Shown here in pieces: positions 723 through 48,511 of a stretch of 64,000 nt of DNA (positions are counted from its first letter, which is position 1; every line of letters starts with the position of its first letter). Where the stretch lies: IMG/VR virus record IMGVR_UViG_3300035698_017721, positions 1-64,000 of that record; one strand, given 5' to 3'. The notes below the pieces were generated by a model, which made no database searches, was not told the DNA's origin, and worked only from the letters and a program-made list of their open reading frames with translations. The position numbers were made by a program, and so were the translations under genes. The DNA comes from a virus.

Positions 723-934
723 ACTGATATTTTGGATTTAGTCAAGATCTCTTTACCGATATACATGTGGTTATCTTCTCGGTCATGGATCTTCAGAAAT
801 GAGAGCTTACCGATTACAGCTTTGGACATGAGTTCCATCACCTGATCGAACTCTACATCCGTATCTACTGTCTGATAACCGTAGGCGATTATCTCACCTG
901 TCGGAACATATAAAACTTCAATGTTAACTATCAT
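698..934 (-). CDS. hypothetical protein (78 aa)
   Basis: Unrecognised small soluble protein with alternating hydrophobic strands at the N-terminus (IVNIEVLYV). Its start codon abuts the stop of the polymerase C-terminal piece and its end overlaps the next gene by 25 nt, so it is translationally coupled inside the polymerase operon. No motif suggests a function. Confidence 0.65.
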   Translation of the reverse strand: MIVNIEVLYVPTGEIIAYGYQTVDTDVEFDQVMELMSKAVIGKLSFLKIHDREDNHMYIGKEILTKSKISVCKEIEPE

Positions 935-1941
935 TAGAATAAGGCATTTACGATTTGTAGTCCTGGTGGAATTGCACCAAGTTTCATTGCTGTCATTACT
1001 CTGTTGATCGGATCAAGAATTGTCTTCTCAAACATCTTATCATAATCGATCGGTGGAGCAAACTCATATGGATACTTTCCTGGATTGTAAGCAAACACAT
1101 CATTCTCGTTCTGATGCTTGATAGCAACGTAGTAGAACTTCACTTTATTACCTGACCTGATCATGTCATACTTTCGTTTCATCTCAGGTTTAGCATTCAA
1201 CAAGTAGTTGTGATAACCTGCAGCACGAACATGAATTGGTGGAGCTTTGGCACATTCAAATTTGTCTGTGTCGTTCAGAATAAACTTAGAGTAGTTATTG
1301 ATAGATCGACCTTGTGAAAGTGTCTCAGGATCAGCCACACGGAATTCCTCTTTAATTCCTCTTAAGATCTGAGTGAATTCCTTTTTGTCCAAGCTTTTCT
1401 TCTTGGTTAGAACATGCTTCATCAGTTCATCTAATTTCTTACGGGCGAACATTGGTGTAGAACTTTGGGCAAGCTCAATACCTTTGTAGACGACCTCAGT
1501 TAGTGGATCAATATCGATACCATCTTCCCAGACCTTATCAAGGATGTATTTCTTCTTAGCTAACCATGTACCAGTTGCTGAGATAGTTTCCATCTCAAAA
1601 TCTTGTTGGTTCTTGGTTTCCCACTTCTTTGCATAAATATCGAATTGCTCCTGAAGATATGGTTTAACTCTAGCCATGTTAATAGCCAGGATAAGTTCCT
1701 TAGGTGTTGTAAAGTCAATTCTGTGAGTCTCTCCATCCTTCTCGTACTCGTAATGTTTGCCCTGCCAGTCACACGAATTAGCAACATCTTCAAATCGGAT
1801 GTAGCAGGAATTGTGTACTAATATATCATTAGCGATAAATGTATGACTATCATCATACATTTCAAGATCATATACATAATCATCTTCAAAATAACCTATT
1901 TCTTCAACGGATTCTATTTCTTCGTATTTATACGTTCGCAT
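934..1941 (-). CDS. DNA polymerase (gp43-like) C-terminal piece fused to C-terminal half of a split intein
   Basis: Residues 1-44 are an intein C-terminal domain: VYDLEMYDDSHTFIANDI fits block F and LVHN fits block G, ending in the His-Asn pair that drives C-terminal cleavage. Ser45 is the +1 residue. From residue 45 the protein continues as the C-terminal palm and thumb of a T4 gp43-type polymerase, with the KKKY motif (AKKKYILD) and the downstream region similar to gp43. Joined to the piece at 3128-3850 by protein trans-splicing, it would rebuild the motif C site YSDTD-SCYI. The start at 1941 lies inside the end of the endonuclease gene. This region is essential for polymerase activity, so splicing or tight association is expected. 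Confidence 0.9.
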   Translation of the reverse strand: MRTYKYEEIESVEEIGYFEDDYVYDLEMYDDSHTFIANDILVHNSCYIRFEDVANSCDWQGKHYEYEKDGETHRIDFTTPKELILAINMARVKPYLQEQFDIYAKKWETKNQQDFEMETISATGTWLAKKKYILDKVWEDGIDIDPLTEVVYKGIELAQSSTPMFARKKLDELMKHVLTKKKSLDKKEFTQILRGIKEEFRVADPETLSQGRSINNYSKFILNDTDKFECAKAPPIHVRAAGYHNYLLNAKPEMKRKYDMIRSGNKVKFYYVAIKHQNENDVFAYNPGKYPYEFAPPIDYDKMFEKTILDPINRVMTAMKLGAIPPGLQIVNALF

Positions 1942-3116
1942 ATTATATTTTTAAGTGATTCGTTAATGCTACCTGGATCTACTCTATAATCATTCTCCCA
2001 TATTACAATGGTTTCAATATTATGTTTCGATAATAATGAATCATATCTCCATTTATCCTTTGCCCATAATTGTTCCGATGTCATTTTTTTATTATACACA
2101 TTAGGTCTATCATTATATTTAAACATAGATGGATTTGCATGAAATATGTCACCATTAAATTCTATACATAATTGAATACTAGGAATATAAAAATCTAACT
2201 TAACATAGGTATTATGTCCTAATTGTTTTCCATATTCACAGTTTTTAGTAGCATAGTATTTTTTTTCATTTGGAAAAAAATCGTCTAATTTATCGAATAG
2301 TACTTGCGATATTTTAGAATATCCGGTATATTTATTATTAAGGTATTGTTTATACTTGTTTTTCCCCTCAGCGCCATATTTTTTTATAAAATTTTCTAAT
2401 ATTAGTCTCTTTGATTCATTAAGATCCTTATATTTTAATGTACCCTTATTTATACCATATTTTTCTATAAAATATTCTATTGAACATCCTGCATATGCTT
2501 GTCTCTTGACATACTTATCCCATTTATCCTTCCCTATTTTTTCTCCATGACGTCTTATTAAATTATCTAATGTTGTTGATCTATCTTTATTATACACAGA
2601 AAAATCAGTTACTGACCAACCATATTTTGTTTTTTTATACTCATATGTATTTGTATATGCTTGTCTCTTGACATACTTATCCCATTTATCCTTTCCTATT
2701 TTTTCTCCATGACGTCTTATTAAATTATCTAATGTTGTTGATCTATCTTTATTACTTAAATTTTTAGCGGCTAGCGGAATATTAAACGCAAAACATGTTA
2801 TTTCCGATGAAACATTAAATATGCGTCCTTTATTCTTTGATATACCATAATCTGAATGTTCTATCATACAATCTTCACAAACAGATAAATAATATTTTAC
2901 ACCTGCTATCTCCTTATATGTAAATTCGCTTTTTGAGTTTAAATCTTTAACTATTATTTTATTTCTATTAAATTTAAAAAAACTATTATAATAAAAAATA
3001 CTATCATTACAAATTCTGCATTTCTTTGCTTTAGGAAAAAAATTAGATTCTATTTCCTTATATAGTTTCTTACATTTTCTGTTTCTTTGCGTCTTTATTA
3101 GCGTTTGTACATTCAT
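1914..3116 (-). CDS. free-standing Vsr-like (EDxHD-type) homing endonuclease between the split-intein halves
   Basis: 400-residue protein on the same strand as the polymerase pieces: 11 nt after the N-intein gene, overlapping the C-intein gene by 28 nt. The N-terminus has Cys pairs (CRIC and CEDC) suggesting a zinc knuckle. The middle has NUMOD-like modules of the type GEKIGKDKWDKYVKRQAY, one duplicated. The C-terminal ~130 residues look like a Vsr-fold nuclease (KLDFYIPSIQLCIEFNGD, then FHANP and VIWENDY). Such enzymes cut intein-less alleles and drive homing. Here the usual in-intein endonuclease is replaced by a separate gene. Lower GC and many AT-rich codons set it apart from the flanking polymerase pieces. 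Confidence 0.85.
   Translation of the reverse strand: MNVQTLIKTQRNRKCKKLYKEIESNFFPKAKKCRICNDSIFYYNSFFKFNRNKIIVKDLNSKSEFTYKEIAGVKYYLSVCEDCMIEHSDYGISKNKGRIFNVSSEITCFAFNIPLAAKNLSNKDRSTTLDNLIRRHGEKIGKDKWDKYVKRQAYTNTYEYKKTKYGWSVTDFSVYNKDRSTTLDNLIRRHGEKIGKDKWDKYVKRQAYAGCSIEYFIEKYGINKGTLKYKDLNESKRLILENFIKKYGAEGKNKYKQYLNNKYTGYSKISQVLFDKLDDFFPNEKKYYATKNCEYGKQLGHNTYVKLDFYIPSIQLCIEFNGDIFHANPSMFKYNDRPNVYNKKMTSEQLWAKDKWRYDSLLSKHNIETIVIWENDYRVDPGSINESLKNIICERINTKK
2493..2754. repeat. two direct copies of a 100-bp in-frame repeat inside the endonuclease gene
   Basis: Positions 2493-2592 and 2655-2754 are 99% identical (one mismatch seen) and spaced 162 bp apart, an exact multiple of three. They encode duplicated NUMOD-like modules (DNLIRRHGEKIGKDKWDKY). 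This looks like a recent internal duplication of a DNA-binding module. Confidence 0.9.
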
Positions 3117-3127
3117 CTGTATACATG

Positions 3128-3850
3128 TTATTTTTCATTATATATACAGACAAGTAAATCTTTTTTTGTATTTATTTCAGAAGCTTTGACCTTTATCTTC
3201 TTTCCATCTCTAATAACTATTAAAGAATGATCATCCGTTACTATTATTTCCTTGCCACTTTTTGAGCGCATTCTATATTTCTTTTTTCGTACTTTGTGTC
3301 GTATGATACGTTTAACATTAGACCATTTCACATCACCATCCCAATTCTCTACAGATACATTACCTTCTGGTAGTAATACTAATTCATTACCCCGTTCATC
3401 ACTAGTATAGCCATGCTTTGCATACAAATTCCAAAAATCTTCTATTGATATAGCACCAAGTGATTTATCCATTATCATCGATGATCGATCTACGGAATCA
3501 GTATCCGAGTAGATATTAACTGGTCTAGTAACTTCAGTAACTTTTGTAAGTCCAAGCTTCTCATGTAATTCGGTATCTAAGTGCCAGAATCGGTTGAAGT
3601 AAGCATTGATCACTCGCTCAGCAAACTTAATAAGATCCTGACCTTGAAGTGTAACAGTCTCAGCAACTTTAGAATTGAAACACACCAACCACTTATTACC
3701 CATGGCTCCATAGATCGAGTTAATCGTAAGCTTAATTGCTTGCTCCTCGTTCTTCCATTCGTTGGACTGGTACTTCATTCTAACGAGCTCAGATTCGATC
3801 TCTGCTCGAGTGCATGTTGCCAGATCTATGTTTGTGTATTGTAATTCCAT
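3128..3850 (-). CDS. DNA polymerase (gp43-like) middle piece fused to N-terminal half of a split intein
   Basis: Residues 1-118 are the fingers/palm of a family-B polymerase: motif B (KLTINSIYGAMGN, about residues 40-52) and the first half of motif C (YSDTD, ending at Asp118). The intein begins at Ser119 (SVDRSSMIMD, block A). Block B (VTDDHSLIVI) lies near residue 208, and the intein half ends at residue 240. Insertion at DTD/S is the classical pol-c site of archaeal and viral polymerase inteins. The catalytic Asp pair is therefore incomplete until this piece is spliced to the piece at 934-1941. It begins in the fingers, so exonuclease and motif A must come from 35534-36955. The stop is TAA, 11 nt before the endonuclease gene. 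Confidence 0.9.
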   Translation of the reverse strand: MELQYTNIDLATCTRAEIESELVRMKYQSNEWKNEEQAIKLTINSIYGAMGNKWLVCFNSKVAETVTLQGQDLIKFAERVINAYFNRFWHLDTELHEKLGLTKVTEVTRPVNIYSDTDSVDRSSMIMDKSLGAISIEDFWNLYAKHGYTSDERGNELVLLPEGNVSVENWDGDVKWSNVKRIIRHKVRKKKYRMRSKSGKEIIVTDDHSLIVIRDGKKIKVKASEINTKKDLLVCIYNEK

Positions 3851-5380: not shown

Positions 5381-6241
5381 ATGAAAGATGTAAAAAGTGG
5401 GTATTGTAATTGTGGATGTAATGAAGAAACTAATATTTATAGGGGCAAACCAAGAAAATTTATAGCAGGACATCAAGCCCGTGGTGCTTGTAATTCGAGA
5501 TATAATGTCGAATTATCAGAGGAAACCAAGAAAAAAATATCAGATAAGAAAAAAGGAAAATTCATTGGATCTAATAATCCGTTTTTTGGAAAAACACATA
5601 CAAATGAAGTGAAAAAAATCATTAGTGAAAAAAATCAAAACCGAATTCGACATTTATCAGGGCTAACTAAAACATGCTTTAACCCTATATGTAATAAACC
5701 CTTTTATGTACCATTGTCCCGTGGTAATGCTTCGTATTGTAGTCGAGACTGTAAAGATCAAGATAACGCTAGGAGATTTTCGGGCGAAAATAATCCGTTT
5801 TTTGGTAAATTTCACTCTGATGAAGTTAAAGAAATAATAAGGAATCATACGTTATTACAACGTTCGCAAAATATTTTTGGACCTACCAAACCGGAATTAC
5901 TAATACAGAATTTACTTACCAAGTTAAATATCAAATTTATTACAGAACATCTTATTAAGAATAAATTTTGTGTTGATATTTTTATACCAGATTATAATCT
6001 AATTATATTTATTGATGGTTGTTATTGGCATGCTTGTGAAGAGCATTGCCCAACAGCAAAAAAACCGAAAACTGATAATGCTCGTATTCCGTATCTCACA
6101 AAGTGTGGATATAACGTAGAAATTATATGGGAACATGATATTACAAAGAATAAAAAATTTCCTGATGCAAAGCCAGAAAAAATATTAAATGACCTACTTC
6201 AAAAATATGTAATAAACACGACTAAATCTGGGTTTAGATAG
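5381..6241 (+). CDS. NUMOD3 / Vsr-like (EDxHD-type) homing endonuclease
   Basis: 286-residue protein with two NUMOD3 modules (GSNNPFFGKTHTNE near residue 66 and SGENNPFFGKFHSDE near 141) that bind DNA, and a Cys-pair finger between them (CFNPIC, YCSRDC). The C-terminal Vsr-like nuclease has FCVDIFIPDYNLIIFIDG, then CYWHACEEHC and VEIIWEHDI. The putative catalytic residues are Asp/Glu plus the His of WHA. It stands on the opposite strand to its neighbours, directly upstream of the broken rnhB gene, and ends in TAG. It is probably a free-standing intron-less homing endonuclease that targets rnhB or its flank. Confidence 0.85.
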   Translation: MKDVKSGYCNCGCNEETNIYRGKPRKFIAGHQARGACNSRYNVELSEETKKKISDKKKGKFIGSNNPFFGKTHTNEVKKIISEKNQNRIRHLSGLTKTCFNPICNKPFYVPLSRGNASYCSRDCKDQDNARRFSGENNPFFGKFHSDEVKEIIRNHTLLQRSQNIFGPTKPELLIQNLLTKLNIKFITEHLIKNKFCVDIFIPDYNLIIFIDGCYWHACEEHCPTAKKPKTDNARIPYLTKCGYNVEIIWEHDITKNKKFPDAKPEKILNDLLQKYVINTTKSGFR

Positions 6242-13621: not shown

Positions 13622-13778
13622 CTAAAATCGGTTAAAGAGACGTTTAATCCACGCCTTGAATCTTTCCCACCGAGTAGGAATGTGCATAAGATCATAACTA
13701 AGAATTTTTTCCAAATGTACTTGGCCATTCATCCACACGACCTTGTGCTCTGGAGGCGATATAAAATTTCTTGTTCAT
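13622..13778 (-). CDS. small basic protein with an apparent +1 frame break (about 51 aa)
   Basis: ATG 13778 overlaps the stop of the glycohydrolase gene (ATGA) and begins MNKKFYI, but this frame soon ends in TAG. In the +1 frame the sequence continues as an open reading frame without a convincing start (SPPEHKVVWMNGQVHLEKI) to TAG at 13622. The frames meet at AAATTTTAT. One fewer T, or a +1 slip of tRNA-Phe on UUUU, would join them. A shorter independent start (ATG 13732) is the alternative. The product is basic and Trp-rich (RWERFKAWIKRLFNRF); function unknown. Confidence 0.45.
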
Positions 13779-14695
13779 AATAAGACGATCGCAGTTTCAG
13801 CTTTCTGAAGCTCGATGAATGTAGTGATTTTCTTATCTAGTTCAACACAATAATCACGACCAAATGGACCGTTCTCTAATGTACCGAATAAATCACTGCT
13901 ATTCAAGTCCTTTTTGATATGTGGGCATAGACTTGCTATTCCCATTGCCAAAGCTGCTACGGAGTCCACATCGCCTCCAAATGCTACGGAGTTGATAAGT
14001 ACTTCTTTATAGTTATTGGATCGAGTGACGACGTCCACAACAGCACCTACGGTCGCATAAGAGTCACAAGGAATGCCATTAGGAAAATCCTTGTACTTGG
14101 AGATCATTGCATGCTTTGATGTAAACTGACATTGCTTTAGAGCCCAAGCGAAATGTTTGGTGAAGGAATACTTCTCATCATTGTAAATCAATGAATGAAC
14201 AAGCAACGAAAGAACTCTCGCTGAATCCATTGCTTCATGATGTATATGTGTTGTGAGACATTGTGAGACCGCAGCATTCTGAACCTGAACGGGATCACCA
14301 AGAAGTCCACATGGAAGAACCCGCATGATTGCTCCGTTAGAAGACTGATGAGGTTCGGCAATATTCATGAACTCAATTCCTGACATTGAATTGGTGAGTG
14401 CTAAACGAACTCTTGAACCATAACCTGTTCGGTAAGGGAACTCACGTTTGTAAGCATTCAAGAAACTGGCTGCGAATTGAACCGGTCTGTAATCGTTTGG
14501 GTTGCTTAAGATCAACTCAGCAACACCCAAAGACATTTGAGTGTCATCGGTGTATTCTCCGTTACCTCTCACATTCCCATGTTTCGATACTCTCGAATGA
14601 AAACGTTTGCCATCGTTGTTCTCGTCAATAAATTCTTTGGGAGCAAATTCAAACGGACAGCCATAGGCATCCCCCAGACAAAGTTCTAAAATCAT
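13775..14695 (-). CDS. ADP-ribosylglycohydrolase (ARH/DraG family)
   Basis: Removes ADP-ribose from modified macromolecules. Family motifs are complete: LGDAYGCPFE near the start, the metal-binding EYTDDTQMSLG (about residues 47-57), SSNGAIMRVLP, and the C-terminal AFGGDVDSVAALAMG, which supplies further Asp ligands for the two magnesium ions. Length 306 fits the family. The start is at the very N-terminal motif; a few residues before GDAYG are fewer than usual. Together with the PARP-like gene at 40339-41667 this gives the phage both writer and eraser activities, or a defence against host ADP-ribosylation. Confidence 0.9.
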   Translation of the reverse strand: MILELCLGDAYGCPFEFAPKEFIDENNDGKRFHSRVSKHGNVRGNGEYTDDTQMSLGVAELILSNPNDYRPVQFAASFLNAYKREFPYRTGYGSRVRLALTNSMSGIEFMNIAEPHQSSNGAIMRVLPCGLLGDPVQVQNAAVSQCLTTHIHHEAMDSARVLSLLVHSLIYNDEKYSFTKHFAWALKQCQFTSKHAMISKYKDFPNGIPCDSYATVGAVVDVVTRSNNYKEVLINSVAFGGDVDSVAALAMGIASLCPHIKKDLNSSDLFGTLENGPFGRDYCVELDKKITTFIELQKAETAIVLL

Positions 14696-17449: not shown

Positions 17450-19252
17450 TTATTTGAATTCACCTCTCAACCAAAGTTTCCTCGGCATCGAATCTTTTCC
17501 GAATGCCATATCTAGATACCGTTTGGCATCCTTATCGTTCTTCAGTTGTTGAAGTTGTTTGTTATTCATTATTACTTCCCAATCTTCTTCCGCTAAAGAT
17601 CCAAGACCTTTTAAGAATCGAATTGAAGATGGTTTTCTTTTACCTTTCAACCAATCGTCGAAGTCAGCTTTATCAAAGAAGTATTCTCGCTTCTTCCCGT
17701 CACCGATCGACAACAATGGTATACGCAATCTAAACAGTCTACCTACTTCAATGATGTAAGGAAACCACTTAAAGAACAGGTTTACTAACAGTGAGGCAAT
17801 GTGTCCACCATCTTCATCAGCATCGGCCGCAATAATAACCCTCTTATAACTGAAGTTTCGTTTAGTTCGATCTAGATCTAGATCTAGAATTTGCATCAGT
17901 TCTACGACCTCTTGATTGCTGGATAGATCTGATACAGAACGAACATTCTTGATCTTACCTTTCAATCGGTAAACACCATCAAGTTTGGTATTCCTTTTCT
18001 GTAGGATAGATCCCATTGCCGATTCTCCCTCAACGATAAACAAGTTCTCTATTCTCCCAGATGGTGGGAAGTATTTAGATGAATTTCGTATATCAACTTT
18101 CTTCTTGATCTTCCGAAGTTTCTTGATCTCCGTTTCCATCTTTCGTTCCTCTACTTTCTCAAATAAAGTTTTGAATAGATCGGTCGTGTAGAATTTTCTG
18201 AATGCTTCTCTGAGGTTATCCTTTATGGTTCCTTCAATCTCACCTCTAGTAGAATCCAACCTGGTTTTATTTTGGTCACGGAAACGTACAAGTCTTGGTG
18301 GTAAATTGAACACCAGGAAAGTCTCATAGAAATGATGTCCTAATTGATCATCCAATTTCGCATTTATAGTCTCGTTAACGATCCTCTGATGCATCCCAGT
18401 ACACATGGCTGAGTTGATAGCTGAAAGAGATCCGGAATGGTCGTAGCTCTCATGTATAACGACCGGTCCAATCTTCGTATCGGCAATGAATGCACCTTTA
18501 GGAAAGAACTCTTGATCTAAATCAAATTTCTCGCCATCGAATGTTACATCAAACTTCAATTTCTTAAGAACTGGATCACGGCTAAGAATGAACTTCTTAA
18601 TCACCATCTCGGTTAGTAGGATCTCACGATTCCATTTAGCCTTCTTAAACAAGGTTGATCTAGGTATGAAAGAAACAGTCGTTCCGGTAATAGTTTGTTT
18701 TTCCCGTTTTATTACAGTTTTTTTATTAGGTATGAATTTATCCCATTCTTTATAAAAAAACGAATTATCATTTCTAGTTTCTATACTAAAAAAAGAAGAA
18801 CATATATTAACCAAACTTACACCAAAGCCATTTGTCCCAATAACAGTTTCATCAATATTATCATTGTCAAAATTTGAACCTGCTCGTAAACAACTGACAG
18901 CAGTTTCTATATTAGACAAACCAGAAGACTTGTTTTTCTGTACACCTTTATAAAAACCTGTACCGGTATCTGATACGACTACCTTATTATTTGCTGTATC
19001 AAAATCAACAGTAATAGATTTCATTTTACCTTTCATGCGCTTGGCACAATCTATAGCATTATCTAATACTTCGTGAAATAATTTATAAAACCCGATTGAC
19101 AAATCGTGGCGTTCCATTACTATTTTACCATTACGAATAATAGGTACTAATTCCTCTGATAAAGTTGTAGAACCAATATAAACCGAACTTCGTTTTAATA
19201 CATGTTCCCAATCTTTTAAAACTACAATTTCGTTTTTATCCAATTTTTTCAT
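17450..19252 (-). CDS. DNA topoisomerase II large subunit (gp39+gp60-like, unsplit)
   Basis: ATPase and TOPRIM subunit of the phage type II topoisomerase. GHKL ATPase motifs: EVLDNAID, SDTGTGF and GTNGFGVSLVN. TOPRIM: LFIVEGESAMG and the metal site AADADEDGGHI. About 600 residues, so the parts that are separate genes (39 and 60) in T4 are in one frame here. I chose ATG 19252 (MKKLDKNEIVVLKDW) over the ATG 30 nt upstream because the upstream extension is hydrophobic and lies in the promoter-like spacer. It is divergent from an endonuclease gene 49 nt away. Partner: 10549-11952. Confidence 0.9.
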   Translation of the reverse strand: MKKLDKNEIVVLKDWEHVLKRSSVYIGSTTLSEELVPIIRNGKIVMERHDLSIGFYKLFHEVLDNAIDCAKRMKGKMKSITVDFDTANNKVVVSDTGTGFYKGVQKNKSSGLSNIETAVSCLRAGSNFDNDNIDETVIGTNGFGVSLVNICSSFFSIETRNDNSFFYKEWDKFIPNKKTVIKREKQTITGTTVSFIPRSTLFKKAKWNREILLTEMVIKKFILSRDPVLKKLKFDVTFDGEKFDLDQEFFPKGAFIADTKIGPVVIHESYDHSGSLSAINSAMCTGMHQRIVNETINAKLDDQLGHHFYETFLVFNLPPRLVRFRDQNKTRLDSTRGEIEGTIKDNLREAFRKFYTTDLFKTLFEKVEERKMETEIKKLRKIKKKVDIRNSSKYFPPSGRIENLFIVEGESAMGSILQKRNTKLDGVYRLKGKIKNVRSVSDLSSNQEVVELMQILDLDLDRTKRNFSYKRVIIAADADEDGGHIASLLVNLFFKWFPYIIEVGRLFRLRIPLLSIGDGKKREYFFDKADFDDWLKGKRKPSSIRFLKGLGSLAEEDWEVIMNNKQLQQLKNDKDAKRYLDMAFGKDSMPRKLWLRGEFK

Positions 19253-19301
19253 AAGCACTAATGGTATATACATTATATACAAAAATTAACCGTTAGTTGC
19301 A

Positions 19302-20435
19302 ATGAACAAATTTGAAGTCGAAATAAATTCCGAAAACTTTAATCCGATATTAAAACAGAAGTTACTTGATTTACTGACTAGTATTGATAAATTATCACGA
19401 TATAAAGCCATACTAGTAAAATTTAAACAGAATCATAATTTTAAAGCATGTGGCCGTTTCACTTCAGCCTATTGGATACAACGTGGGTGGTCTAAGGATG
19501 AAGCAATAATCAAGAAGGCGAAATATAAACGGAAATTAAAGCCTGGTCCAATGGAAATTTCTTTCTGGCTAGAAAAAATAAATCCAAACACTAATTTATT
19601 TTATACCGAAGATGAAGCTAAACATAAAATAAAAACTCAGAGACCAGTCAATAAAGAATATTGGTTGGCCAAAGGTCTAACCAAAGAAGAAGCCGTAACT
19701 AAAGTAAAAGAACTCCAAACAAAAAATGGAGATATTTGGGTTAAGAAAAATAAAAAATCACGGCAGAAAGACCGAACACAGACTCAAATATTATATTGGA
19801 AAAATAAACATAATATGACTTTAGTAGAAGCAAAAGCAAAAATTAAGGACGTACAAAATAATATAAGTTTAGATGTACTAATGGTAAAATACGGTAATAT
19901 AGAAGGTAAAATACGATATGATAAAATTTGTACCAAATTATCATTTGCTGGTACTGTGGATGGATATATTAGTCGCTATGGTCCGAAATTGGGTCCGAAA
20001 TTACACAAAGAAAAAACCATTAAATCATGTACGAATAATAGAATTTCTAAAGAATCAATAGTATTTTTCAAAAAAATATATAAATTTTTTCGGGAAAATG
20101 GTATTAAATCAAATGAAATATATTGGGGAATTACTGGATCGAAAGAATATTTCTTACATGAAAAAATTAGTAATAAAATTTTCTGGTATGACTTTACAAT
20201 ACCACACTTAAAAATAATTATTGAATTTCATGGCGTCCGGTTTCATCCTAATCCAAAATGGGACAAAAAACGTTGGGACAAATGGGATTTATTTGGTATG
20301 AAAGCAAACGAAAAATATGAATTTGATACATTTAAGAAAACCTTGGCTTCTAGTCATGGTTATGATTTAATAGAAATATGGTCTGATGAAAAACAACAAT
20401 TTAACATAATTGATCTTAAAAAGTATTTAAAATAA
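19302..20435 (+). CDS. Vsr-like (EDxHD-type) homing endonuclease next to the topoisomerase gene
   Basis: 377-residue protein with several N-terminal repeats of the form Y/FWIxRGWSKDEAxxKxK (residues ~45-140), which look like small DNA-binding helices. The C-terminal nuclease has WYDFTIPHLKIIIEFHG, FHPNPKWDKKRW and YDLIEIWSDE. Divergently transcribed from the topoisomerase large-subunit gene. In T4 the equivalent locus is also a target of a homing endonuclease. A TATATAC-rich stretch lies upstream. Very AT-rich, unlike the flanking gene. Confidence 0.8.
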   Translation: MNKFEVEINSENFNPILKQKLLDLLTSIDKLSRYKAILVKFKQNHNFKACGRFTSAYWIQRGWSKDEAIIKKAKYKRKLKPGPMEISFWLEKINPNTNLFYTEDEAKHKIKTQRPVNKEYWLAKGLTKEEAVTKVKELQTKNGDIWVKKNKKSRQKDRTQTQILYWKNKHNMTLVEAKAKIKDVQNNISLDVLMVKYGNIEGKIRYDKICTKLSFAGTVDGYISRYGPKLGPKLHKEKTIKSCTNNRISKESIVFFKKIYKFFRENGIKSNEIYWGITGSKEYFLHEKISNKIFWYDFTIPHLKIIIEFHGVRFHPNPKWDKKRWDKWDLFGMKANEKYEFDTFKKTLASSHGYDLIEIWSDEKQQFNIIDLKKYLK

Positions 20436-27058: not shown

Positions 27059-27934
27059 TTATAGTGTAAATCCAACCATGAAATAAACCGGACTGGCAAT
27101 TACACCGGTGGGTCCTAAATTATTACCGCTCGAATCCTCGCCATATTCTGTCCAAGCATTACGAAAATTTGGATTTACGATAAACGAAGCTGTAACAGGA
27201 ATAACTAAAGTCTTACCAATATGTATGTCTTTATGACCATTAACAGCAACCGTTGTAACACCACCACGATCATAAAAATTCAAACCACTTGCTCCGGTTA
27301 ATCCTGCCAATGTGAATGATAAGAATGGCCAAGGTTGACCTGTTGCTTCAAAATAAACACCTTCGGTTAAATCACCTCGTTTTTTATAAATTGGATAACC
27401 TGCAACAATTTCAAAGTAATCTTTATATTCCCAGCCTAAACGTAATTCTAAGATGTGATTAGTAGTTGCCGACCAGTTTCCATAATCGCCATAATTATCT
27501 ACAACTTGATCTTTGGTGAAAAAATAATAATCATCTAAAGTTAAGGAAAATCCTGCAGGTATATGGAAAGTCGTATAGATTTCTATCCAGGTACCATATC
27601 CGCCACGATTACCATTAAGTGTTGTAGTCCCCATAAGACCAAGATCCCAATATTCAGAACCTAACCACATATCCAAATAAACAGATGGTGATTGTCCATA
27701 ACTAAGACCACGCCAAATGTTTCTTGTTGATAAGCCTACAGTATAATCAACCTCAAACTTATATCTGTTTGTGTCTTTAGTCGATACAATCGGGTGTATA
27801 TTGATTGCCTTGGGTGACAACTCCAGCGGAATTGGATCAACAACTTCATTGGGGTTCATATTCTGGGTTGAATCAGTCTGTCCAAAGGACAAGAAAGAAA
27901 TTGACAGTAATAGAATTGTAAATAAATGCTTCAT
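27059..27934 (-). CDS. outer-membrane beta-barrel protein (putative porin)
   Basis: Signal peptide MKHLFTILLLSISFLSFGQ with cleavage after the Gly/Gln. The mature part begins polar, then alternates amphipathic strands with aromatic ends (VGLSTRNIWRGLSYGQSP, YFEIVAGYPIYKKRGD). It ends in ...VYFMVGFTL, a typical last strand with a C-terminal aromatic pattern. This pattern matches the TorF-type putative porins. An outer-membrane barrel in a phage early region is unusual. It lies next to the ABC module and may serve the same system. It could change the host surface during infection. Confidence 0.7.
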   Translation of the reverse strand: MKHLFTILLLSISFLSFGQTDSTQNMNPNEVVDPIPLELSPKAINIHPIVSTKDTNRYKFEVDYTVGLSTRNIWRGLSYGQSPSVYLDMWLGSEYWDLGLMGTTTLNGNRGGYGTWIEIYTTFHIPAGFSLTLDDYYFFTKDQVVDNYGDYGNWSATTNHILELRLGWEYKDYFEIVAGYPIYKKRGDLTEGVYFEATGQPWPFLSFTLAGLTGASGLNFYDRGGVTTVAVNGHKDIHIGKTLVIPVTASFIVNPNFRNAWTEYGEDSSGNNLGPTGVIASPVYFMVGFTL

Positions 27935-27962
27935 GTTTTTGGGTTTATTGTTTTTGTTGATT

Positions 27963-27972
27963 GTAAAATTAA
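27963..27972 (-). promoter_or_regulatory. Bacteroidota-type -7 promoter element
   Basis: TTAATTTTAC upstream of the porin gene, with TTTCCATA about 24 nt further up; a variant of the same promoter class. Confidence 0.5.
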
Positions 27973-28000
27973 GGAAAAGAATTGAACTATGGAAATTCTG

Positions 28001-29029
28001 CTAAGAATTTTCCACAGTTTCTGTTAATTGATTTAGGAACTCGAGGTGTTTTGGTCCAAATTCTTCCCAAGCGAGTCCCATTGCTTTGAGGTCGTAATGC
28101 TTCACTATTGTAGCACAATCAATGTAATCTTCTCTCGATATGATTGCCCCTAATTCAGTATTGGATTTTAACCACTCTTCATTTGTTGATGGATCATATG
28201 CTTTACCGAATAGGTTTTTGATAAAACCTCTTTCAGCAGACAATGCCTCTTTACCTACTGATACAAGAGCAGACAGTTTCAATCGTAGAGAATCAGCTTT
28301 CAACTTTGCTGGCAAGTACCCTATCACATAGCTGCTATCGGCAAGTTCAACTGCCAATTTCATATCATGTGTTGAGAAGATGATTGTGTTCAACTCATGC
28401 TCATTTTGGTATAGATCAAATGATGCTTTACAGCTTTTGATATTACCTACATCCAATCCTGAGAATGGTTCATCAAATGCCATGAAATGACCAGCTGAAA
28501 GAATCTGCTCAATGATCGCTGTTCGTTGACGTTGACCACCAGACAATTCACAAGGATATTGATCTTTCTGTTCGTTCAATCCCCAAGTCTCAAGATATTT
28601 GTATGCAACGGTTTCCTTCTCATCAGTCGACAAGTCGGTTCGTCTCTGTGCAGACATCAATATGTTGAACACCGTTTTGTTACGGAACAGTGTATATTTT
28701 TGATCAACATATCCTATGTCACCTTCATGAACAATCTTTGCATCAGTTAGATCATCAGGTGTAGATAGATCCGTTAGAAGTACGTTACCTGTTCTTGGCG
28801 TAACCAATCCGGTTAGTGCTTTGAACAACGTAGATTTACCTCTTCCTGATCTTCCAACAATTGCAATGGTCTGACCTGTAATAACACCAGCTCGAACCGT
28901 ATCACGTTCCAACATGTTAATGTTCTTCAGAACAGGTAGGTAGTCTTTACCATAACCATATCCACACTCAACATCTTTGAGCGAAATGATTGGTTCGGTC
29001 TCTTCGTATTTTTTTATTTCTGTATCCAT
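28001..29029 (-). CDS. ABC transporter ATPase
   Basis: Walker A GRSGRGKST, Q-loop region YVDQKYTLF, signature LSGGQRQR, Walker B HFMAFDEP and H-loop STHD are all present, so it should hydrolyse ATP. The N-terminal ~200 residues match the NitT/TauT-type (SsuB/NrtD) importer ATPases; the extra ~110 C-terminal residues have no recognised domain. ATG 29029 (MDTEIKKYEE) was chosen because a longer start would overlap the permease gene more. Pairs with the permease at 29034-29819. Confidence 0.9.
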   Translation of the reverse strand: MDTEIKKYEETEPIISLKDVECGYGYGKDYLPVLKNINMLERDTVRAGVITGQTIAIVGRSGRGKSTLFKALTGLVTPRTGNVLLTDLSTPDDLTDAKIVHEGDIGYVDQKYTLFRNKTVFNILMSAQRRTDLSTDEKETVAYKYLETWGLNEQKDQYPCELSGGQRQRTAIIEQILSAGHFMAFDEPFSGLDVGNIKSCKASFDLYQNEHELNTIIFSTHDMKLAVELADSSYVIGYLPAKLKADSLRLKLSALVSVGKEALSAERGFIKNLFGKAYDPSTNEEWLKSNTELGAIISREDYIDCATIVKHYDLKAMGLAWEEFGPKHLEFLNQLTETVENS

Positions 29030-29033
29030 TTCC

Positions 29034-29819
29034 TTAGAGTTTTGAATATCTGAATGCAATTCGTCTTGACTTGTCTAGGAAGAAGTCTAAACTCAGTCCG
29101 AGAAGCAATATAATGATCTGTAAGGCAACGATTCTACCGTGGTTTGCCATCTTATCAGAATTCTTAATTAAGAACCCTAGACCTCCGTTTGCTGCTACAA
29201 TAGATTCAACTGTTACAAGCATCATCCAAGCGATCGCAAGGTTCTGACGAATGATCTCAATTACATAATCCATTCGACCTTTAATAACGACTTCCCAAAG
29301 CACTTCCCATCGATTATAACCGAGGGTCTGTGCATGATCGAATTCCTCTTGTGAGATCTCCTTAATCATTGCCATCAAACTAGTGGTCAAAAATGTTGAA
29401 ACGAATGTTACTAGAACTAGAATTTGAATAACACTTCCTTTATCAAAGAACAAAGTAATGTAAAACGATATTCCGGTTAGTGGTAAGTATCTGAACTTAC
29501 TAATAAATGTGGTGATCGGTTTGAATAATGGTATTACAGAAAGATAAGCGAAGATCAATGATATAACTGTTGCTATTCCGATTGCTTTACCACACAATGC
29601 CAAAGACCTTCCAACATGTGTCATTAACCCACCTTTGTAAAGACCCTGAAGACCAGCTAAAACTTGTGGTCCAGTAGGAAAGATATGGGTTCCTTCTGTT
29701 AGACTATAAATAGTCCAGTAACCTAATGCACCTAGAATCCAGATGGCTGTTACCATGATCATCGATGGGGCTCTTAGAGTTCCGAACGGTGTCACTATTT
29801 GAGTTAATTCTTGTTTCAT
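29034..29819 (-). CDS. ABC transporter permease (SsuC/TauC/NrtB-like)
   Basis: About six hydrophobic segments, with an EAA-type coupling loop (EEFDHAQTLGYNRWEVLWEV) that contacts the ATPase, as in NitT/TauT-family permeases. Sits in the inner membrane. Its stop is just past the ATPase start, so the two are translated together. Substrate unknown; alkane-sulfonate, taurine or nitrate importers are the closest by topology. Confidence 0.85.
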   Translation of the reverse strand: MKQELTQIVTPFGTLRAPSMIMVTAIWILGALGYWTIYSLTEGTHIFPTGPQVLAGLQGLYKGGLMTHVGRSLALCGKAIGIATVISLIFAYLSVIPLFKPITTFISKFRYLPLTGISFYITLFFDKGSVIQILVLVTFVSTFLTTSLMAMIKEISQEEFDHAQTLGYNRWEVLWEVVIKGRMDYVIEIIRQNLAIAWMMLVTVESIVAANGGLGFLIKNSDKMANHGRIVALQIIILLLGLSLDFFLDKSRRIAFRYSKL

Positions 29820-29836
29820 CGATGTTAGATTAGGGC

Positions 29837-29864
29837 AAAAAAAAGGGGGCCGAAACCCCCTTTT
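29837..29864. terminator. intrinsic terminator (both strands)
   Basis: GGGGG / CCCCC hairpin flanked by A8 and T4 runs, between the OmpA fusion and the permease genes. Confidence 0.8.
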
Positions 29865-29879
29865 AAATACCTCAGTGAA

Positions 29880-31715
29880 TTACTGCAGAATTGTGATTGT
29901 CACTCTTCTGTTTGCTTTACGGGCAGCGAATGAATCGTTGTCCGCATTTGGGTCAAGTGGTTCAGCAGAACCTTTACCATCAACCTCTTGGAATCTCTTT
30001 ACAGTTATTCCTTTTGCAAGCAATGCTTCGGCAACCGAGTTGGCTCTATCAGCAGATAGTTTGTTGTTGACTGATGCTGATCCAGTGTTATCCGTGTGAC
30101 CGATGATCGCAACTTTAGTCTGTTCAGCTTGAACTAATAGACTAGTGATGGTCTGAATGTCATCGAATGACGTTGGTTGGATATTTGCATTACCAATTGC
30201 GAAGTTAATGTTCCATTGACCTTCAGCAAGTTTTGTAGTTTTTGCCTTAGAGTAATCAATCGTTACTTCTTCAGTTGAGATTGCTCCCTTAACTGCTTTC
30301 AAGTATGTAAGATCTACTGCTTCAGCATAAGGTACAACACGTGGAACTGAAGAGTTGAAGTCGAATGGATTAAGATCTACAAGGTATCCACCAACTTGGT
30401 TGTAAACTGCTTGGTATCTATCGATTCCATCAGATCCAAGTCCGTAGTATTGTTTTACATCAGCGTGATTTTTAGCTCTTGTTCCACCCATGTTGTAAGA
30501 TAGACCACCTTTTGAAGCAGTCTGACCTTGGAACATATCGTACCAGTAGTCTCCACCTTTGTCCATACCGAAAGTAGCATCAACTAAGTCTCCACCTGTT
30601 CGTCCCCATTCTTCATACAACTTGATCTGATTAGCTGCTGTAAGAGAAGCCTGAAGTACACCAGTAACTTTTTCTGGGTTCTGCTCTGCCCATTCCTTAA
30701 CCATGATAAGTGTTGTCCACATTTGGTTTGGAAAGTCTGCAGTAGAAGCTACATCAGTATATCCAGTAACTGCTTCAAATACCATTACATCACCAGGTGT
30801 CCATGTTGCACAACCATCGATTTTCTTGTCAATGGTTTCATTAGACACTGTTCCATCAGGATTCTTCACTTTAAGTGTAACAGTAAATCCTGCAGATTCA
30901 GATGAGATAAGTTCCTTAGCTGACATGATATAATCATCATCCGCTGATGGGAATATATTCACTGCATTTGGATCGTATGTAGTAAAGTCAGAGTTAACGG
31001 CCATTCCATTTGCGAAACAGAAGTTCACTAACGTTACCCAGTCACCATCTCCAGGAACAACTGAGATTAAAGATCCTAGCATAGTCTGAGGATTCTTTTT
31101 CCAGCTTGCTGGACCAATTACTTTGTCCTCACCGAAAGATGCTCCACCAACACAACCTACATTAACAACATGGTATTTACCCTCACCGAATTTCTCATCG
31201 ATTGCTGCTTGTAATGTACTGATATACCAAGGTGCTCCATCACCCATTATCATCACACCTGCTGCGGCTTCTGATGATGAAGGGAATGCTTCACCACTAT
31301 CGAACTGCTCGATAAACTTCAGTTGCATTGCTTTAAGTTGACCAACCATATCCTGACGTTTGATCGTCAAGTTAACACCATTCAGTTCCATTAAAGAACC
31401 TTTAGTGGTTACTGCTCCACCATTTGCTGTGATAATGGCTGTCTCACCATTCCAAGCATAACCCGCTATTGTCCACGCTGGGTAATTCGTGTTTGCCGTG
31501 ATTGAAGCCATGTCTGTTGGCAAAGGCAATAGATCTGTTGGAAGTGCATTGTCCAACGTTTTTTGGTTAAGCGTAAGAGCTTCACCAGTGATAGATTCAC
31601 CTACCATAATTCCCGGAGCAAACACTACTGCGATTGCAACGAGTACCGCGATACCAAGAGCAACTACTACTCCCTCATAACCGGTCTTCAAATTTGTTTT
31701 TAGAATTCTTCCCAT
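29880..31715 (-). CDS. solute-binding-domain / OmpA peptidoglycan-binding fusion, membrane anchored
   Basis: 611 residues. An N-terminal TM anchor (residues ~16-36, VVVALGIAVLVAIAVVFAPG) is followed by a ~430-residue periplasmic domain that resembles type-II solute-binding proteins of the NitT/TauT class (for example DVMVFEAVTGYTDVAST). A C-terminal OmpA-like domain (GHTDNTGSASVNNKLSADRA and ARKANRRVTI) should bind peptidoglycan. Thus a ligand receptor is tied to both inner membrane and cell wall. It adjoins the permease and ATPase genes. Such fusions are rare in phages. The binding pocket and ligand cannot be read from sequence. Confidence 0.85.
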   Translation of the reverse strand: MGRILKTNLKTGYEGVVVALGIAVLVAIAVVFAPGIMVGESITGEALTLNQKTLDNALPTDLLPLPTDMASITANTNYPAWTIAGYAWNGETAIITANGGAVTTKGSLMELNGVNLTIKRQDMVGQLKAMQLKFIEQFDSGEAFPSSSEAAAGVMIMGDGAPWYISTLQAAIDEKFGEGKYHVVNVGCVGGASFGEDKVIGPASWKKNPQTMLGSLISVVPGDGDWVTLVNFCFANGMAVNSDFTTYDPNAVNIFPSADDDYIMSAKELISSESAGFTVTLKVKNPDGTVSNETIDKKIDGCATWTPGDVMVFEAVTGYTDVASTADFPNQMWTTLIMVKEWAEQNPEKVTGVLQASLTAANQIKLYEEWGRTGGDLVDATFGMDKGGDYWYDMFQGQTASKGGLSYNMGGTRAKNHADVKQYYGLGSDGIDRYQAVYNQVGGYLVDLNPFDFNSSVPRVVPYAEAVDLTYLKAVKGAISTEEVTIDYSKAKTTKLAEGQWNINFAIGNANIQPTSFDDIQTITSLLVQAEQTKVAIIGHTDNTGSASVNNKLSADRANSVAEALLAKGITVKRFQEVDGKGSAEPLDPNADNDSFAARKANRRVTITILQ

Positions 31716-34491: not shown

Positions 34492-35562
34492 ATGGATTAC
34501 ATATCAATTATCAAAGATTATCACGAATCAAATAAATCTAACCGTAACTGGAATAGTGAACTTAGCAAAATATTAAGAGATTCATCTAACTATGATGAGT
34601 TTAAAACAGAAACATTTCCTTTTTTAGATCAACCTCTAGACAAACAAATAATATGGCATGTGTTAAATGATGATTATGTAGAACATATATGTAGAAATTG
34701 TAATACCGTATTGGTTTTTCATCGCCAAGTAGACTATCCTAAGTTCTGCTCGAAACAATGTACTGCTAAATATACGGCAGATCATATGACCGATGAAGAA
34801 AAATGTTTGATGGTAAAAAATCGTAAAAAAACATGCCTTCAAAAGTATGGGTTCATATCAGCGTCACAAAACGATACAGTGAAAGTAAAAAAAGAAAAAA
34901 CTAGTTTAAAGAAATACGGAGTGAAAAATGCAATGCAAAATAAGACAATTAGAACAAAACAATTAAAGTCTATGCAAAAAACTAATATGGAACGTTATGG
35001 CACAAAATCCACATTAGGTTTGGATTCAACCCGAGAAAAATACAAAGAAACCATGTTAGAATTGTATGGCGTTGATCATCCCACTAAAAATTCAATGATT
35101 AGAGATAAAGTAAAACAGACAATGATAGATCGGTATGGAGTTGAATATTACGCACAATCAAAAGATTGGTATAAAAGATATAAGAATCATGAATGGGGTA
35201 ATAAGTACAAAGATTATATTACGCCAAGTGGTATAGTCTTAAGAATACAAGGTTATGAAAATTTCGCATTAGATAAACTGTTTGCATCATATCAAGAAGA
35301 TGACATAATCACAACCAAGATACATAACGTCACAGGAAAAATACGATACTCGTTTGACAAGAAAACAAAAACGTACACGCCAGATATTTATATCAAATCT
35401 GAAAACAAAATTATTGAAGTAAAATCGCAATTCACATATGATGTACAAATTAACAAAAACGAATTGAAAGCCCAAGCATGCGTTGACTTAGGATTTCAAT
35501 TCGAATTTTGGATCATTGATAGAAAAGGACGTATTACAGAGCGTTTTGTAAATGTCTCTTAA
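34492..35562 (+). CDS. PD-(D/E)xK-type homing endonuclease beside the polymerase N-terminal gene
   Basis: N-terminal Cys pairs (CRNCNTV, FCSKQC), then repeats of the form TCLQKYGFISASQND, TSLKKYGVKNAMQNK, TNMERYGTKSTLGLD and MLELYGVDHPTKNS, a known DNA-binding module of phage homing enzymes. The C-terminal nuclease shows TYTPDIYIKSENKIIEVKS, a D...ExK core. It overlaps the 3-prime end of the polymerase N-terminal gene tail to tail by 29 nt. This placement suggests the split of the polymerase gene was caused by or is guarded by this element. Confidence 0.8.
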   Translation: MDYISIIKDYHESNKSNRNWNSELSKILRDSSNYDEFKTETFPFLDQPLDKQIIWHVLNDDYVEHICRNCNTVLVFHRQVDYPKFCSKQCTAKYTADHMTDEEKCLMVKNRKKTCLQKYGFISASQNDTVKVKKEKTSLKKYGVKNAMQNKTIRTKQLKSMQKTNMERYGTKSTLGLDSTREKYKETMLELYGVDHPTKNSMIRDKVKQTMIDRYGVEYYAQSKDWYKRYKNHEWGNKYKDYITPSGIVLRIQGYENFALDKLFASYQEDDIITTKIHNVTGKIRYSFDKKTKTYTPDIYIKSENKIIEVKSQFTYDVQINKNELKAQACVDLGFQFEFWIIDRKGRITERFVNVS

Positions 35563-36955
35563 GATAATCCATTTCTTTGTTTATATCAAGCATTTTGCCC
35601 TTTGTATCTTTCCTTTGTCCGTAAAGATCTTGTAAAATAGTCCGTAAAACAGAATCTTGTGTGTCATCGAAAAGGCTACCATTAGCACAAACAACTTGAC
35701 CTTCTCCTGCAAGACCTGTTGGGCTATTTCCTTGGTAAGCCTCTGGTGAAATGTTCCATTGCATCATGACATTTGGATACAAACTTGAGAAGTCATAACA
35801 AGACACCCACTCATGCATACCTGTAACGGGTTCTTTCACATAAGCACCAACGAAGTGGGCTTGTTGAATAAGATCCTTATCCGTATCAATAAATACTTTA
35901 CCTCTCTTGTAAAATTCACGACACATAAGGGCTTCTTGAACCCATACAGGTGAGAATGCTCGATTGATTTCTACCTGAGCAACATCCGCCAATTTGAAGA
36001 ACGTTGTCATAGTATTCAGTGCCTGATCAATATAGTGGACCAGAACAGCATCAACAGCATTATAGAAAATGAACTTCGTGAAGTCTTTCTCGTATAGGTC
36101 CTTCAATGTTCCAGGATACTTGATCTTACCAATACCAGTTGCTCGTTCACCAATGTAATCGAGTTGGTGGTTTTCCTTGATTTTAATAACCCTATCCCAC
36201 TTCTTAACAATATCCAGGTAGTCAATGATCAACTTGTGCTGAGGAATTCTTGCTTTACCTTTCAATGGACCTGCCATAGCTGGATTGATTTTCAAACGAT
36301 CTGCTCTGTTCACCAGATACTTCCAATCAAAGTCCAAGAAGAACCAACCTGTAATACATGGCATCTTGTCCATGAGCTTACCGAAGAATGTATAGAGCAT
36401 ATCATACTCAGATTCAAACTTCACATATCGGAACGTCCACTTATCTTCTGGGTATTTGTCGAAGTGCTTATCAAGGTCTGCTTGGATCTTATCATGATCA
36501 TAATCAGTCATATCCTTAAGACCAAGAACCGTAACTTTCTTATCAGTACAGTTTGCAATGGCAATGGATGTAACCATGTTCAATGCATGTTCAGGGTCAG
36601 GGAAGCCATCAGTAATCTCAGTCTCAATATCAATTGAGAACTTGTTAGGGATGTTGAACTCAAGGGCTTTTGCAATCTCATCTTTACGACGGATCAAAAT
36701 CTCTTCAATGGTATACTTGTTGATCCTAGAAGTACGAACTTTCTTTACTGGCTTACCATCCCAAGATTCAAACTCATCTGATGGTTTATCCAATCTACCT
36801 TGTGCATACTCCCAGATATATCCATCTTCATCTTGATCTAAAGGAACCGCCAAATAAGCCGTGTTACCTTCTTTATCAAAATAGGATATGTTCAGTTCTT
36901 CTAACTGACCAGATCTTGGGTCACCGTTTCTTCTTACTTCTATATCTACAATCAT
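35534..36955 (-). CDS. DNA polymerase (gp43-like) N-terminal piece: exonuclease and motif A
   Basis: 473 residues. Exo I is FSIDIETEI (Asp109, Glu111), Exo II is GWFFLDFDW and Exo III is YNAVDAVLV. Polymerase motif A is CYDFSSLYPNVM. The protein stops shortly after a helix equivalent to the T4 gp43 fingers base (LYGQRKDTKGKMLDINKEMD). The rest, motif B onward, lies about 31.7 kb away at 3128-3850 and 934-1941. No intein or splice residue is seen at this break, so association is probably non-covalent. Split gp43 genes are known in some T4-like phages, but not with a further intein split. It shares an ATGA overlap with the P-loop gene. Confidence 0.9.
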   Translation of the reverse strand: MIVDIEVRRNGDPRSGQLEELNISYFDKEGNTAYLAVPLDQDEDGYIWEYAQGRLDKPSDEFESWDGKPVKKVRTSRINKYTIEEILIRRKDEIAKALEFNIPNKFSIDIETEITDGFPDPEHALNMVTSIAIANCTDKKVTVLGLKDMTDYDHDKIQADLDKHFDKYPEDKWTFRYVKFESEYDMLYTFFGKLMDKMPCITGWFFLDFDWKYLVNRADRLKINPAMAGPLKGKARIPQHKLIIDYLDIVKKWDRVIKIKENHQLDYIGERATGIGKIKYPGTLKDLYEKDFTKFIFYNAVDAVLVHYIDQALNTMTTFFKLADVAQVEINRAFSPVWVQEALMCREFYKRGKVFIDTDKDLIQQAHFVGAYVKEPVTGMHEWVSCYDFSSLYPNVMMQWNISPEAYQGNSPTGLAGEGQVVCANGSLFDDTQDSVLRTILQDLYGQRKDTKGKMLDINKEMDYLKRHLQNAL

Positions 36956-48239: not shown

Positions 48240-48313
48240 GGGGCTGTAGTTCAGCTGGTAAGAACGCCGATCTCTAAAATCGGATGTCGCGGGTTCGAGC
48301 CCCGTCAGCCTCG
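48240..48313 (+). tRNA. tRNA-Sup (CUA), amber suppressor
   Basis: Acceptor GGGGCTG / CAGCCTC; anticodon arm CCGAT-CTCTAAA-ATCGG gives CUA, which reads the UAG stop codon. D- and T-arms normal. The amino acid charged is not clear. Confidence 0.85.
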
Positions 48314-48318
48314 CAAAT

Positions 48319-48393
48319 GGGAATATAGCTCAGTCCGGTTAGAGCGGGAGTCTCTAAAACTCTTCGTCGTGGGTTCGAATCCCACTATTCCTT
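48319..48393 (+). tRNA. second tRNA-Sup (CUA)
   Basis: Acceptor GGGAATA / TATTCCT; anticodon arm GGAGT-CTCTAAA-ACTCT; anticodon CUA. Sequence differs from the first, so it is a second gene and not a recent copy. Confidence 0.85.
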
Positions 48394-48511
48394 CTACATT
48401 TATTAACCCTAAAAACAAAGCCATGAAATAGGTAAGCAGAGGACCATAATTTGAATCGAGTGAATCGAAGAGTACAAACAATTCAAACAACAAAATTCAA
48501 AAACAATAGTC

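Follow-up and report, generated by a model that had tools for sequence, protein, structure and literature searches.

IMG/VR virus record IMGVR_UViG_3300035698_017721 is a 65-kb fragment, which was analyzed over its whole length; positions 1–64,000 of it are referred to here as the window. The window very probably encodes a phage T4 gp43-like DNA polymerase (PolB) in three genes, and the products of two of them, pieces 2 and 3, would be joined by protein trans-splicing of a split intein at the catalytic motif DTD|S. Directly established are the anatomy of the sequence, the conservation of the residues concerned, the homology to split inteins that are biochemically proven at the same site and the recurrence of the layout in relatives. 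Three open reading frames (ORFs) were confirmed, all on the minus strand, at 934–1941 (piece 3), 1914–3116 (an endonuclease) and 3128–3850 (piece 2). Piece 1 lies on the same strand at 35534–36955, ~32 kb from piece 2 in the record. Jointly, the three pieces are complete for motifs A, B, and C, the exonuclease and the thumb of a T4 gp43-type PolB. We infer that the polymerase consists of three polypeptides, with one break probably bridged non-covalently and the other by trans-splicing. As in a fractured gene, a conserved enzyme is broken by a split intein, and a separate endonuclease ORF occupies the gap.

Two Intein Halves at the Polymerase Active Site

An earlier note on this DNA, made from the sequence alone, had placed a split intein at the polymerase active site, and intein profiles, predicted structure, and the expected splicing residues all agree with it. 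The 240-amino-acid (aa) product of piece 2 matched PF00136 (DNA_pol_B, E = 3e-11) over residues 29–120, corresponding to profile positions 147–232, and PF14890 (Intein_splicing, E = 8e-10) over residues 167–233, as anticipated for polymerase sequence running to YSDTD and continuing into an intein. The extein part (118 aa, 3497–3850) was delineated with PF00136 and RB69 gp43 and contains a helical leader, motif B (KLTINSIYG) on the second fingers helix, and the palm as far as YSDTD, the aligned region covering RB69 residues of about 554–614. One correction applies: this N-piece is not the N-terminal part of the polymerase but starts at the second fingers helix.

The N-intein (IntN; 122 aa, 3131–3496) occupies residues 119–240 of the product, immediately behind YSDTD. 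The junction reads YSDTD|SVDRSS, which places a serine at intein position 1. Motif NX, defined as a histidine after Arg or Lys (PMC10189870), is found here as IIRHKV. Both R184 and H185 of this motif are invariant among 24 homologues, as are T205 and H208 of block B (VTDDHS). The closest PDB relative of the N-half was the Aes123 PolB1 split intein (9hth, E = 5e-11). Structure prediction, which the earlier note had put forward as a check, was carried out with AlphaFold on piece 2, the alignments behind this and the other structure models being built from the window and IMG/VR loci only. The intein part of the model was mostly confident, and the leading PDB matches were all inteins (probability 1.00), 9hth included. 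Template modeling (TM) scores against these inteins were low because only half an intein is present in the model. The predicted fold of the intein part is that of a HINT (intein) domain.

Piece 3 carries the complementary half. Residues 6–44 of its 335-aa product matched PF14890 positions 120–155 (E = 5e-4) and residues 44–321 matched the DNA polymerase family phrog_262 over positions 580–839 (E = 5e-41), which bears out the proposed order of an intein end closing in HN, a serine, and the polymerase thumb. The C-intein (IntC; 44 aa, 1810–1941) comprises block F (VYDLEMYDDSHTF) and a block G that ends in ILVHN (ANDILVHN). It is followed directly by Ser45, the Ser+1 residue (ILVHN|SCYI), with which the 291-aa extein begins (937–1809; SCYIRF); this extein supplies the remaining palm and the thumb, an assignment that also draws on tblastn to 1094 phage records. 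The Asp of VYDLE in block F (D25), the penultimate His (H43), and the terminal Asn (N44) were invariant in 20 homologues, and the best PDB match of the C-half was the PolB16 intein (8cpn/8cpo, E = 1e-6). The intein-profile search thus recovered PF14890 in each half; the two matches are complementary and mark the only two PF14890 places in the whole record.

Ser1, Ser+1, block B, block F, the terminal residues, and NX are all those of a class 1 Ser1 (cysteine-independent) split intein, and the splicing residues are invariant or nearly so over 20–24 homologues. The halves of 122 and 44 aa compare with 115–120 aa for IntN and 39–46 aa for IntC in typically split Ser1 PolB inteins (PMC12707363). 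Recoding of TAG was considered as a cause of spurious ORF ends and rejected: most genes of the window have TAA or TGA as their stop codon, and each of the three polymerase pieces stops at TAA.

Proposed Joining of Pieces 2 and 3

Intein-free relatives read IYGDTDSIFVSF, IYADTDSLFVSF, and VYVDTDSNFFTM at this site, so joining at DTD|S restores the ordinary motif. In the proposed reaction, the N-intein of piece 2 and the C-intein of piece 3 would associate and fold, and Ser1 would attack the Asp-Ser1 bond, aided by the NX and block B histidines. The chain would then be transferred to Ser+1 and the terminal Asn would cyclize, leaving piece 2 ligated to piece 3 with YSDTD-SCYIRF restored. Trans-splicing in vitro has been reported for the Aes123 PolB1 split intein, which is located at the same site. 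Before splicing, one chain would hold the catalytic Asp residues and another the thumb; activity is therefore not expected at that stage, and polymerase activity presumably depends on splicing. Pieces 1 and 2 would meet at the tip of the fingers without an intein, probably docking non-covalently in the manner of gp43A/gp43B. The suggestion that the two proteins restore DTDS on joining holds, but a single chain would not result, as piece 1 is encoded separately, 32 kb off. With the enzyme in three pieces, trans-splicing alone leaves more than one chain.

A Second Break at the Tip of the Fingers

Piece 1 (473 aa) comprises the 3′-5′ exonuclease, palm motif A (DFSSLYPN), and the first fingers helix, and ends at the fingers tip. 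A search of the whole record with PF00136 gave two places, 3491–3766 (positions 147–232) and 35570–35929 (positions 18–145), the latter in piece 1, which aligned to residues 112–505 of RB69 gp43 (E = 1.4e-32) and matched phrog_2062 and phrog_262 (E about 1e-74). The break falls at the fingers tip between the helices: piece 1 stops at RB69 residue 505 and piece 2 picks up near 554, so that ~50 RB69 residues are absent, their place being taken by the helical leader of piece 2 and a short tail of piece 1. The same fingertip break was found in 14 relatives. The gp43A and gp43B subunits of phage 44RR reportedly form an active enzyme (work of Petrov et al. 2010).

A second split intein joining pieces 1 and 2 was also considered. 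It was rejected, as no intein sequence is found at either end and the PF14890 places described above are the only ones in the record.

A homing-endonuclease-like ORF of the DUF7487 type (356 aa, 34492–35562, plus strand; PF24308, E = 5e-49; phrog_3339, homing endonuclease) is convergent with piece 1 and overlaps its 3′ end by 29 nucleotides (nt). DUF7487 ORFs adjoin piece 1 in the phage genomes LR756500 and Lak-A1, and in Tenacibaculum phage PTm1 they are situated between the pieces. This placement in the window and in the three genomes suggests that the fingertip break, with which the DUF7487 ORF is likely linked, also followed insertion of an endonuclease.

The Endonuclease between the Intein Halves

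The ORF between the halves (1914–3116, minus strand) encodes a protein of 400 aa that belongs to phrog_22677 (E = 2e-61). Its homologues are placed between the intein halves in Lak, PTm1, Aes508, and IMG/VR loci, and residues E294, D308, E319, H326, D354, and W373-E374 are conserved. The earlier note had described a Vsr-like endonuclease overlapping the C-piece. The position and the overlap, of 28 nt with the start of piece 3, stand, but the name stands less well: Pfam Vsr matched neither the window endonuclease nor any of its 25 homologues. In the predicted model, which was confident (predicted local distance difference test score, pLDDT, 88), the leading nuclease matches were E. coli Vsr (1vsr/1cw0) and AbaSI/PvuRts1I, all of them weak (probability 0.6–0.85, E 0.1–0.5), and the overlay of the model on Vsr gave a TM-score of about 0.5. 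The label is thus partly earned, coming from weak fold matches and from homologues so annotated.

The guanine-cytosine (GC) content falls to 26%–31% across 1810–3500 from ~40% in the flanking polymerase exteins, which fits an inserted module. The ORF is presumably a free-standing homing endonuclease that spreads, or formerly spread, the module. The gene contains a direct repeat of 103 nt, 98% identical between 2490–2592 and 2652–2754, reflecting recent duplication of a repeat of 33–34 aa. A paralogous phrog_22677 endonuclease is encoded at 19302–20435 (plus strand), beside a topoisomerase-like gene (17450–19282).

Distribution and Mobility

The three-piece plan also occurs in LR756500 (462 kb), in four Lak megaphages of the gut, Lak-A1, -A2, -B1, and -C1 (TAG taken as Gln), in PTm1, and in Aeromonas phage Aes508. 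In Lak-A1, pieces 1 and 2 are on opposite strands, separated by ~220 kb. The fingertip break is found without the intein in PAU, MA9V-1, pT24, and four phages of 634–735 kb. In a PolB tree, the window grouped with Lak (support 97/95), and LR756500 came next with weaker support (80/80). Loci were collected from two IMG/VR scans with intein-bearing profiles and from named phages, so the counts describe a selected sample and not frequencies. At least 50 distinct loci carry the split form, at least 25 carry the intein in one ORF, and at least 16 are intein-free; recurrence of the layout in at least 50 distinct loci excludes chance. Among the 50 split loci listed, the gap holds an ORF matching the profile of the window endonuclease in 37, and in about ten any ORF there is shorter than 150 aa. 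Ser1 is present in 69 of 70 listed loci and Ser+1 in 80 of 81.

Both intein halves are retained in Lak-A2, where the gap ORF has only 80 aa, and the endonuclease of Lak-B1 has a Tyr at the position of the conserved His326. Estimates by the simple Nei-Gojobori method, in places close to saturation, put the ratio of nonsynonymous to synonymous change (dN/dS) in Lak at 0.06–0.30 for the N-half, 0.08 for the C-half, 0.01–0.10 for the exteins, and 0.18–0.30 for the endonuclease. Both intein halves are under purifying selection, even where the endonuclease is lost. By the same estimates, synonymous divergence between Lak-A1 and Lak-C1 was about 0.11–0.13 in the exteins and zero in the C-half but reached 1.1 in the N-half, with the endonuclease at 0.55. 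Across Lak-A1, Lak-C1, and Lak-A2 (loci L088, L084, and L090), the N-intein, together with the endonuclease if present, is strongly diverged, whereas the C-intein is identical and the polymerase genes are near-identical; the diverged segment therefore looks exchanged by recombination.

Inteins of ~70% identity reside in polymerases of ~28% identity, and inteins of 57% identity in polymerases of 88% identity; by these comparisons, the intein is mobile between distant polymerases. Together with the segment exchanged in Lak, they are indirect support for mobility of the module. Between locus L166 and loci L173, L174, and L176, split and contiguous forms of the intein occur in polymerases that are 88% identical, indicating a recent switch from one state to the other. 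Tree tests rejected purely vertical descent of the intein from a single origin in the huge-phage clade (p = 5e-8), as well as one fingertip break shared with the Aeromonas phages (p = 3.5e-38). A single, old origin of the fingertip break inside the huge-phage clade fits and was not rejected (p = 0.22). On balance, it seems probable that in a large and global clade of huge phages that includes Lak, the sole replicative polymerase is made as three chains, some of them encoded tens to hundreds of kilobases apart, that replication would need trans-splicing at DTD|S, and that the N-intein and endonuclease have been exchanged as a unit.

Alternative Explanations

Several points weigh against a trans-spliced polymerase from three genes. 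Splicing in this phage is deduced from the residues present. Docking of pieces 1 and 2 is probably non-covalent, a view that draws on homologous architecture and on the gp43A/gp43B work. The PF14890 match of the C-half lies under the curated cut-off, as is expected for a fragment of only 39 residues, and the model of piece 2 was poor over its polymerase portion (predicted TM-score, pTM, 0.43). Finally, an uninterrupted polymerase gene was sought and no intact PolB was found in the record, but with only 65 kb covered, this phage may still encode an intact polymerase in another part of its genome.

The polymerase could be an unspliced multi-subunit enzyme in which the intein halves act as an association clamp only and splicing has been lost. 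A complex of separate chains is not absurd, as piece 1 is probably joined non-covalently and the fingertip break has no intein. Nevertheless, this is very unlikely: the splicing residues are all retained, Ser1 and Ser+1 with one exception each among the loci listed, and a retained intein would part DTD from the remaining palm at the catalytic site. It is likewise highly improbable that the pieces are decayed remnants in a genome copied by another polymerase. The rest of the genome is unseen, but the three pieces are all open with their motifs kept, and the low dN/dS of the Lak exteins argues against decay. Moreover, no intact PolB was found in LR756500 or the four Lak genomes, nor any match to another PolB, to PolA, or to PolIII-alpha, and these genomes bear on dependence better than the 65-kb record does. 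Joining at the RNA level, with a group I intron or similar removing the endonuclease region to give one translation product, has parallels in the group I intron of the Aes508 gp43B piece, per its record, and in the many group I introns of huge gut phages (PMC12363816), but can practically be dismissed, as an Rfam search of the window yielded neither a group I intron nor any further known RNA at the break, the interrupting sequence itself codes for intein, and at least 25 relatives have it in an uninterrupted single ORF.

Other Genes in the Window

A protein with a poly(ADP-ribose) polymerase (PARP) catalytic domain is encoded at 40339–41667 (minus strand; PF00644, E = 7e-25) and an ADP-ribosylglycohydrolase at 13775–14695 (minus strand; PF03747, E = 6e-37). 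Possibly, the two are a writer and an eraser of ADP-ribose. An ATP-binding cassette (ABC) transporter cluster at 27059–31715 (minus strand) consists of genes for an ATPase, a permease, and an OmpA-domain protein of 611 aa; TAG is the stop codon of the ATPase gene, and beyond it 313 more codons are open in frame and reach into the next ORF. The amber-suppressor anticodon CTA is carried by two tRNA genes that lie side by side at 48240–48314 and 48319–48394 (plus strand). The frame of an RNase HII gene (PF01351, 4586–5400) is disrupted within the catalytic DEAGRG-type motif, and a NUMOD3/Vsr endonuclease gene (5381–6241) adjoins it.

Relation to Known Systems and Implications

Fractured PolB genes with a Ser1/Ser+1 split intein are already known, and the window adds a member. 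Fractured genes with a split intein and a free-standing endonuclease in the gap, in a phage-type DNA synthesis enzyme, were reportedly found in metagenomic reads by Dassa et al. 2009, a study cited in PMC6892783; the window has a dispersed third piece in addition. Aes508 and Aes123 share with it a three-piece PolB (gp43A, gp43B-1, and gp43B-2), the fingertip break, the Ser1/Ser+1 split intein at DTD|S, and a gap endonuclease from the same family; in Aes508 the arrangement is annotated. In contrast to the window, the pieces of Aes508 are adjacent in one operon, a Seg-like endonuclease lies at the fingertip break, gp43B-1 has a group I intron, the extein is ~24%–27% identical, and the fingertip break is of independent origin. 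The PTm1 protein, annotated as an "intein-containing split DNA polymerase precursor," agrees in three-piece order, split intein, and gap endonuclease, but its pieces lie within 7 kb, its extein is ~32% identical, and its intein was separately acquired in the tree. A split-intein PolB was reported for the Pseudomonas jumbo phage MIJ3 (PMC6892783); it and PA5oct have the same site, Ser1, Ser+1, and a gap endonuclease, but exonuclease and palm form one chain (two pieces in all) and the endonuclease is HNH/Hef-like. Other cysteine-independent Ser1/Ser+1 inteins of phage-type PolB are PolB16 OarG, LCGC14 PolB2, GOM-OPS-1 PolB2, and CP21 PolB1; unlike the window intein, PolB16 is atypically split, with an N-half of 15 aa. 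No mention of inteins was found in the Lak and huge-phage papers PMC6784885, PMC8346664, and PMC7162821, and the searchable literature seems to hold no report of a three-piece polymerase throughout a lineage of huge phages.

Natural Ser1/Ser+1 split inteins are a rare class sought for cysteine-free protein ligation, and protein engineering makes use of them (PMC10189870, PMC12707363, PMC13014065); the window contributes one, and its relatives contribute tens. Because a single codon is found in this one family with a split intein, with a contiguous intein, without the endonuclease, and without any intein, gene fracture can be followed through its life cycle. The Lak junction peptide TTETGTLDGPEFSYLDGNQSLTVAGDTDSIYVEFGR offers a handle on splicing in existing metaproteomes. 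Lak-type huge phages, known only from metagenomes, would need a spliced three-part replicative polymerase, and exchange of the N-intein and endonuclease as a unit could make mismatched polymerase halves incompatible during co-infection.

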